A DNA stretch of 64,000 nucleotides from assembly GCA_025330725.1 (NCBI GenBank), contig JAIWND010000014.1, positions 620,001-684,000 on the forward strand, given 5' to 3'. How positions within the stretch are numbered: position 1 is the first letter of the stretch; each line of letters starts with the position of its first letter. This stretch comes from Chlamydoabsidia padenii. Lineage: Eukaryota > Mucoromycota > Mucoromycetes > Mucorales > Cunninghamellaceae. Below, in pieces: positions 20,908 through 23,049 of the stretch. A model generated the notes under the pieces. The model made no database searches. It saw only the letters and a list, made by a program, of their open reading frames with translations, and was not told where the DNA came from. Made by a program: the position numbers and the translations under genes.

Positions 20908-23049
20908 ATGCATTCTTTAAGGAATACAAGTGCTGATCCATTTTATGACATGACACATACGCAAATCATCCTGAAATTTAAACGGGACAAGGCGGAACGT
21001 TTGACTAATGTATCTGAAGGTAAGTGCTATACAATAACTAATTGTTGAAAGATGTACTAATCAAAAGCTTTCTCTCTCTCTCTTTTTATTTTAGTGGTGG
21101 TAACTTGTAGTAGATGTGGACAAGCCGGACATCGTAATGCCAGATCCCACAGTTGTCGTCTTAATGCACGGAACAGACAAGGTAATGAATGACGTTATAC
21201 TTATACCCTCCATATCAGCTTCTCACTAAATATTCCACTCTATAGTAGAAATTCTAAGGGGGGGGTTTATAAGATCGCTCAACAGTATGACAGATACAAA
21301 CAACAATCAACAAGTGAATTGGTGAACCATGTGTCTCTAGGGTGGCTATACGAAGAACTACAAAGGAACGATGACATCAAAGCCATGCGGAAAAGGAAAC
21401 GGCAATAGCTATCAAGAGAAGTTTGTCAGAAAATCAACAGCAACGACGGCCGTCCTCCTCACTTCTCCACCGAATTACCGTCTACATTGGAAGATGCTGT
21501 CTCCACTCTTATCATTGGTACAAGAAAGCCAACTCCCTCCTTGTCAATGCCGGCGGCACCACCATATCTCGGGCCGATTGCCTGTTATCAAAAGCCGACT
21601 ATTATCCACTCTTCAATATGCCTCCGAAACGACCCTTCCGTTTGTCCTTTGTCACTACTCCAATCAGCATTCTGGTCCAACTTCTCGATGGTGTGGTCAG
21701 TGATAAACCTCGTGTATCAACTAAAAAAGGCATAGACAGGACGCGAGAAGATCGTGGAACCTTCTATAAATTCCTCTTTGTTGCAAAAATTGCGACTTGG
21801 ATCATGGTAAGAAGCTGTAAAACAAACATGAACAGGCAAGGGGAATGTTTTGACTAAATGATTTTATAACTTACTATCGTAGCATGGGAAACTTGGACTA
21901 AATTGTCGGACTGACTGATGATGCTTCTGATCAACGACGACTGATCTTCACCAACTCCATATACACAGACAGTTATACAGTCAACGTACCGTTTAACAGA
22001 CAAACGAAGAAAGTATCACCGCCTGACCCCGACATGGACGACTTTAACGAAGACCTTTCATACCATCAACACTTCAACGATCACTTTCGACTTTGGCCCA
22101 TCGATCCTGGCATCAAAAATATATATTGAACAACCGGTGGACAGTCCGAATATCGAACATTCTCAACCAAGGAATGGCGCGCAAAGTGTGGAATTACAGA
22201 CGACTACCGAATCAACTACGGCGAAAGCATGATGACGGTATCCTACAAATCGAATCTAATTTACCAACAACGAAAACATCGTCATCAGCACAACATATGG
22301 TGGCCATAGTATACATCTTGAACCACTTGACGCCCTTGCTTAACCATTATGGGAATGTATTGTATGCCACTGATCGTCTTCTCAATTACTCTGGTAGTCA
22401 AAGCTGGATTATGAAATAGTGCGAAACTTTATTGATGGTGGACGAAAATATCAACGCCGACTAGGCCCAACCCAAGAACGTCAAGTAGTAAGGAGTAAGT
22501 TACACAAAAAAATGGTATATTGGTAGATAATACTGATTCTAACGTTTATTATTATCCTAACAGTAGCCGCCATGACAACAAGCCCTTCACCCCGCCCGTG
22601 ATACTATTTCCTCGCTGGCGATTGGTGATGGATCCTTCGATATGACGATGAAAGGTACAAAACCTGGTATGTGGATCCGTGTCAAAAAGGTACTCAAGAA
22701 AGCTGAAATTGTTTAAAAACTGGTCGTTGTTTCGATTAATGAAGCATTCACTTCAAAGGTAAAAGTAGATAAAGTAGTGTGTTACATTTGGTAGTAACTT
22801 GTCAATATGATTCACAATAGGTCTGTAGCAAATGCCAAACAAAAAAAAAACACGATGAACAAGGTCATCAATGACACTTTGAAATTACACTCGGTGTTGG
22901 TCTGCCAAGATTGTAAGACTGTGTGGAATCGGGATGTCAACACCGCCAACAGCATCTATTCTCTTGCTACTCATATAATGAACAACAACCCTCGGTCTTC
23001 CATTTTTAGTCATCAAGGCTCTACTTCCCCAACTCCAATCTTACGTTAG
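20908..23049 (+). pseudogene. Fanzor (eukaryotic TnpB-like RNA-guided endonuclease) relic, interrupted
   Basis: A spliced gene remnant with the landmarks of a Fanzor. The N-terminus (ATG 20908) carries CSRCGQAGHRNARSHSC, a zinc-knuckle-like motif. Further on are a strand-rich block (TNSIYTDSYTVNVPFNR), a RuvC-I motif WPIDPGIKN (Asp codon 22103), a GDGSF...MKGTKPG block where RuvC-II is expected, INEAFTSK with a Glu (codon 22741) at the alternative position used in Fanzors, a split zinc ribbon CSKC...CQDC, and RuvC-III NRDVNTANSI (Asp codon 22933). Intron signals remain. Breaks: frame change at an 8-G run (21258-21265), TAG 21406-21408, TAA 21899-21901, TGA 22127-22129 right after RuvC-I, two frame changes at about 22.26-22.42 kb, TAA 22714-22716, and a frame change at a 10-A run (22841-22850). 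Family call is strong; the copy looks dead. No terminal repeats were recognised. Confidence 0.85.

Follow-up and report, generated by a model that had tools for sequence, protein, structure and literature searches.

Most Fanzor1 (Fz1) proteins are 600–700 aa long (PMC11423790), and what Fanzors do biologically is described as unknown (PMC10432273). Insertions in the REC lobe seem to be a common habit of Fanzor1: Fanzor1s with REC1 insertions reach up to ~800 aa, and these insertions are described as likely heteroduplex contacts, with no solenoid mentioned in the sections consulted (PMC10711439). SpuFz1 of Spizellomyces punctatus (PDB 8gkh) has a globular REC insertion of 150 aa, and the word solenoid occurs nowhere in the text of that paper (PMC10432273). 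PpFz1 of Parasitella parasitica carries an insertion of ~100 aa in RuvC (FRI, binding cyclophilin), which its authors found only in Parasitella and Rhizopus (PMC11423790). Here we analyzed a stretch of 64,000 nucleotides (the window) from Chlamydoabsidia padenii (Mucorales) within its 34.2 Mb assembly of 95 contigs, in which copies of the element are labelled L0nn. An earlier note, made from the letters alone, had proposed a decayed, spliced Fanzor at 20908–23049. The locus is indeed a broken, shortened, spliced Fanzor. Very probably, it is what remains of a Fanzor1 gene from a DNA transposon, now dead, whose nuclease would have been RNA-guided as judged by homology and included a β-solenoid. 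The family resembles PpFz1 as a mucoralean Fanzor1 with an extra inserted domain (PMC11423790) and SpuFz1 in its RuvC/TNB order and REC-region insertion (PMC10432273). It differs from both in the insertion itself, a β-solenoid of ~180 aa in REC, and from most Fz1 proteins in its length of ~1,200–1,250 aa. Within the literature covered, the β-solenoid as an inserted domain and a protein of this size are new; REC insertions as such are known. The solenoid-bearing copies make up a new Fanzor1 variant; the relic itself is an ordinary pseudogene, the normal fate of a transposon gene.

The family assignment was made through the sister copies. The window copy is 87% identical over 1.85 kb to the copy on contig C23 in blastn (E=0), and further copies at 73% lie on contigs C41, C1, and C25, a likeness far beyond chance. 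Against the Pfam TNB profile PF07282 (curated cut-off 26.3 bits), the zinc-ribbon piece of the window scored 17.0 bits, whereas its counterpart in L034, the nearest sister (86% identical), reached 26.5 bits, narrowly over the cut-off. The profile search proposed in the earlier note succeeded for the sister and fell short for the window. A relative from Absidia glauca (P0002) scored 44.6 bits. In the whole genome 32 places matched PF07282 at E≤0.001, 30 of them over the cut-off. The window piece is below the cut-off and absent from these 32 matches, so its family was assigned from the sisters. A profile built on 17 pieces from the solenoid-bearing family and other Fanzors of the genome had 12 matches in the PDB at E≤1, all of them named TnpB/OrfB, Cas12/CRISPR, TranC, or Fanzor; SpuFz1 was the sole named Fanzor (E 0.047). 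The sister exon and these PDB matches together bear out the proposal of a decayed, spliced Fanzor. An adenylylsulfate kinase match of P0002 in the PDB (E 0.011) was rejected, as it falls outside the nuclease core.

The motifs of the window agree with this assignment. The N-terminal knuckle claimed from the sequence is present in exon 2, but its spacing is C-x2-C-x4-H-x7-C. A standard CCHC knuckle is spaced otherwise. We confirmed the RuvC-I DPG (22103–22111), which is also found in L034, L036, L056, and P0002, the GDGSF block without the RuvC-II Glu (22624–22638), the zinc ribbon CxxC...CxxC (CSKC at 22824–22835, CQDC ahead of NRDVNTA), and the RuvC-III NRDVNTA (Asp codon 22933–22935). The Glu in INEAFTSK was likewise found (Table 1), six residues ahead of the CxxC (INEAFTSKV-CSKC). 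GT...AG borders at matching places in the sister copies substantiate the spliceosomal intron signals; the window has five introns, and L036 shows a sixth. Published marks of Fanzors are DPG and a Glu six residues ahead of the zinc finger, and TDG marks Fanzor1 (PMC10711439); the earlier note had already pointed to the alternative Glu as a published feature. The Fanzor features found here are thus DPG, the alternative Glu, the C4 ribbon with RD, and introns in a eukaryotic genome. The WED motif reads TDG, the Fanzor1 form, in the sisters L034, P0002, and L056, TDD in L036, and TDS in the window.

The window copy is without ~1.9 kb at 21251, where L034, L035, and L036 have 1,907, 1,919, and 1,925 extra bases. 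This deletion took the whole solenoid. The absent segment is predicted to encode a β-solenoid of ~180 residues inserted in the REC lobe. The AlphaFold model is a regular β-helix, with a predicted local distance difference test score (pLDDT) mostly of 85–90 over residues 61–190. In L034, a frame of 256 aa runs from the N-terminal part via the REC helix into the solenoid; in L035 and L036, frames of 484 and 503 aa run from the solenoid via the hinge QDLRGMCPMMF into the remaining REC. The ratio of nonsynonymous to synonymous substitution rates (dN/dS) of the solenoid between L034 and L036 was 0.29 in frame (bootstrap 0.16–0.45) against 0.82 and 1.06 off frame, with 25, 16, and 37 differences at the three codon positions. 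Between L034 and L035 it was 0.20 in frame against 0.84 and 1.00. A slightly longer alignment in a first pass gave 0.35 and 0.30. The nuclease exons gave 0.21–0.39, and the REC after the solenoid (L054 vs L036) 0.18. The solenoid is under purifying selection: because dN/dS is low in frame and 0.82–1.06 off frame, it was kept as protein while the lineages of the copies diverged.

The solenoid was also matched in the diverged copies L054 (C18) and L055 (C10). In Absidia glauca, the predicted protein P0005 combines the knuckle and the solenoid with a RuvC-I piece that shares 87% identity with P0002; its gene model runs on into an AN1 gene and misses a large part of the REC lobe. The annotation of P0002 begins at the hinge, and its solenoid would lie upstream of the annotated start. 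No solenoid match came from ten further Fanzor loci in this genome (L044–L053), and two of them, read directly, have only a short link at its position. In our shallow searches, the link between a solenoid and a TnpB-type nuclease was met only in this family. The literature covered on domain insertions in Fanzor/TnpB and on fungal Fanzors, to which few subscription papers belonged, contains no solenoid-bearing Fanzor and no publication linking Fanzor with Absidia.

Further decay is evident in the window copy. From 21251 to 23046, introns included, it is 88% identical to L034, and the two differ in length at 13 places along the 1,780 columns of the alignment. Its exon 5 is 69% identical in protein to that of L034 and has three internal stops; an in-frame TAA in exon 6 is another example (Table 1). 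The A-run near 22841 has a length difference of 4 bp, and the deletion join adjoins the G-run 21258–21265, which fits the claim that two of the breaks lie at homopolymer runs. For three short stretches of exon, the window compared with L034 gave dN/dS values of 0.68, 3.21, and 0.37. Every interval spanned 1, as dead copies would be expected to show.

The ancestor would have been a spliced Fanzor1 gene for a protein of ~1,200–1,250 residues, ordered as a knuckle-like N terminus, a REC helix, the ~180-residue β-solenoid, the remaining REC lobe, WED, RuvC with DPG, the alternative Glu, and RD, and finally a C4 zinc ribbon. Homology suggests that it was an RNA-guided nuclease whose guide RNA was transcribed from the element's 3' end, and its cutting of target DNA may have helped the element to persist or spread. 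As an arm of the REC lobe, the solenoid most likely bound proteins or self-assembled. Later the window copy lost ~1.9 kb with the whole solenoid and picked up stops and frameshifts. The repeat pattern of the solenoid is like that of bactofilin, MinC-C, and other β-solenoids, and its model aligns in fold with tapirin, antifreeze, and secretion-domain β-helices. A more specific proposal is that a bactofilin-like solenoid self-assembles in Absidia-type Fanzor1 into dimers or filaments, or docks on a host or viral structure, so that assembly would be part of finding or holding target DNA; we consider this unlikely. The FRI of PpFz1 yielded a host partner, cyclophilin (PMC11423790), and the solenoid, a different insertion that selection has kept in other Mucorales, offers another handle on Fanzor function in hosts. 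Its binding partner may reveal what solenoid-bearing nucleases do there. The family also suggests that a REC lobe can accommodate a rigid domain as large as ~180 residues, a point of use to protein engineers.

Several observations, including some on the 3' tail given below, weigh against a solenoid-bearing, RNA-guided Fanzor1. The genome does contain sister copies, for which the earlier note had advised looking, but every examined copy of the subfamily is broken, and the working protein was never seen as one frame. L035 and L036 are without 29 bp just ahead of the solenoid frame, which L034 and L037 have, so that each solenoid junction is open in some copies but no copy has both open. The dN/dS of L054 vs L055 (0.44; 0.25–0.81) spans only the helix and the solenoid start, and the interval of L035 vs L036 (0.63; 0.12–2.84) is too wide to inform. 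The solenoid scored below the curated cut-offs of PF04519 bactofilin (20.2 vs 27.9 bits) and PF03775 MinC_C (21.7 vs 33.2 bits); a genome scan with these profiles gave one match, also below cut-off (20.8 bits). Foldseek of the solenoid model against the PDB gave no match at E≤0.001. No named Fanzor in the PDB was reached by sequence below E 0.04. Given the sub-threshold score of the window piece, the gene might be only TnpB-like or another zinc-ribbon protein, for example from a bacterial contaminant. This is highly improbable with the introns of the window and L036, TNB matches spread over the contigs of the genome, and DPG together with the alternative Glu. It is also conceivable, although we think it improbable, that the solenoid lies outside the nuclease, as an unrelated gene or exon inserted in one ancestral element and hitch-hiking or skipped by splicing. 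Public gene models do split the region: P0003 stops before RuvC, P0002 begins at the hinge, and P0001 retains the solenoid and omits the REC helix ahead of it. The open frames nevertheless link the solenoid to REC on both sides, if in different copies; its position is constant in copies at 30–48% protein identity and in another genus, and its dN/dS is within the range of the nuclease exons.

The function of the 3' tail is the other point to be weighed. The earlier note had suggested looking for a conserved structured RNA just 3' of 23049; the tail is conserved there, but the folding tests gave no significant structure. By analogy with known Fanzors, the tail may provide a guide RNA. In an 11-row alignment, its conservation starts ahead of the element end, already inside the C-terminal coding part. 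The tails of L036 and L055 are 86% identical, compared with 68% and 66% for exons 6 and 7 and 48% for the intron between them, and those of L036 and L042 88%. In described Fanzor/TnpB loci, the scaffold reaches the right element end (PMC10711439). There is a sizeable chance, short of even, that the tail yields no guide RNA and owes its conservation only to transposase binding or to the young age of the copies. The tail includes the element end (GTACTG adjoining TA), and the deletion derivatives L037 and L038 retain it together with the 5' region. Between L036 and L034 it shows no excess conservation (75% vs 79% in exon 7), so that an excess was found in one of the two comparisons having an exon for reference. 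Folding was not significant against shuffles (z from −0.19 to −1.38 for four tails, +0.47 for L034, and +0.17 for the window), RNAalifold on the tails gave 0 pairs, and no Rfam family was matched by the tail.

The ends of the element were defined for L036 and its kin, not for the window's own group. L036 starts with TA-CAGTAC and finishes with GTACTG-TA, a short terminal repeat of which 8 bp were found. The 3' end is ACTG-TA in L035, L036, L039, and L042 and ACTATA in L055. These ends fit mariner-type Fanzor1 elements, which share with L036 and its kin the absence of an own transposase and an end adjoining TA (PMC3627910, Bao and Jurka 2013); the short 8-bp repeat and the restriction of known ends to L036 and its kin are differences. 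No transposase was noticed in these Fanzor copies. L037 and L038, on two contigs and 81–84% alike, have a common internal deletion (L034 3877 to ~6400). Such short derivatives seem to have moved in trans, because they share this deletion and keep the 5' and 3' regions on two contigs. L035 and L036 are 90–94% alike on different contigs with the same 29-bp loss; it seems that a copy moved after it had been broken. Just upstream of the REC piece of the related Fanzor in L056, Tc3-HTH and sub-cut-off DDE_3 pieces lie on the same strand (2978–3988, −), either as one composite element or as a nested insertion.

The coordinates of the relic are collected in Table 1. Position 23049 did not hold as its end, since homology continues to 23166. 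In blastn, window 20176–20448 matches L038, 20261–21251 and 21251–23166 match L034, and the L037 match also reaches 23166. The 5' homology starts between 20176 and 20261, varying with the copy compared.

Table 1. Parts of the Fanzor1 relic in the window.
Feature	Position	Strand	Basis and remarks
Whole relic element	20176..23166	+	Bounded by homology with other copies; ends approximate
Exon 1, begins MHSLRNT, MHSLRNTSADPF	20908..21019	+	Open reading frame, GT donor at 21020; related exon in L034
Exon 2, zinc-knuckle-like, carries CSRCGQAGHRNARSHSC	21095..21181	+	Aligned region, splice borders in L034, L036, L037
Exon 3 stub and deletion join	21246..21262	+	Breakpoint ~21251, beside G-run
Exon 4 remains (REC/WED part), frameshifted	21262..21806	+	Alignment with L034
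Exon 5, WED TDS and RuvC-I DPG; stops and frameshifts	21883..22494	+	Likeness to L034 exon 5
Exon 6, GDGSF without Glu, then INEAFTSK	22564..22758	+	Alternative Glu 22741–22743, TAA 22714–22716
Exon 7, C4 zinc ribbon and RuvC-III NRDVN	22821..23078	+	Frame change at A-run; 3' limit approximate
3' tail common to sister copies	23050..23166	+	11-row alignment; candidate guide-RNA scaffold and/or transposon end

In three copies (window 20176–20190, L034 ~1805, and L038), the sequence at the 5' border of the window's group is AGCGGGATTCGAA or nearly so. It resembles a tRNA T-arm on the opposite strand, but ARAGORN found no tRNA. Elsewhere in the window, a 701-aa open frame at 16294–18399 (−) without a Pfam match contains degenerate tandem repeats (Tandem Repeats Finder, 17092–17635; periods 42, 90, 132, and 222). 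Downstream of the relic are an exon of the Tim17/Pmp24 family at 23680–23925 (+, 44.8 bits) and a gamma-glutamyltranspeptidase exon at 27974–28381 (+, 93.6 bits).
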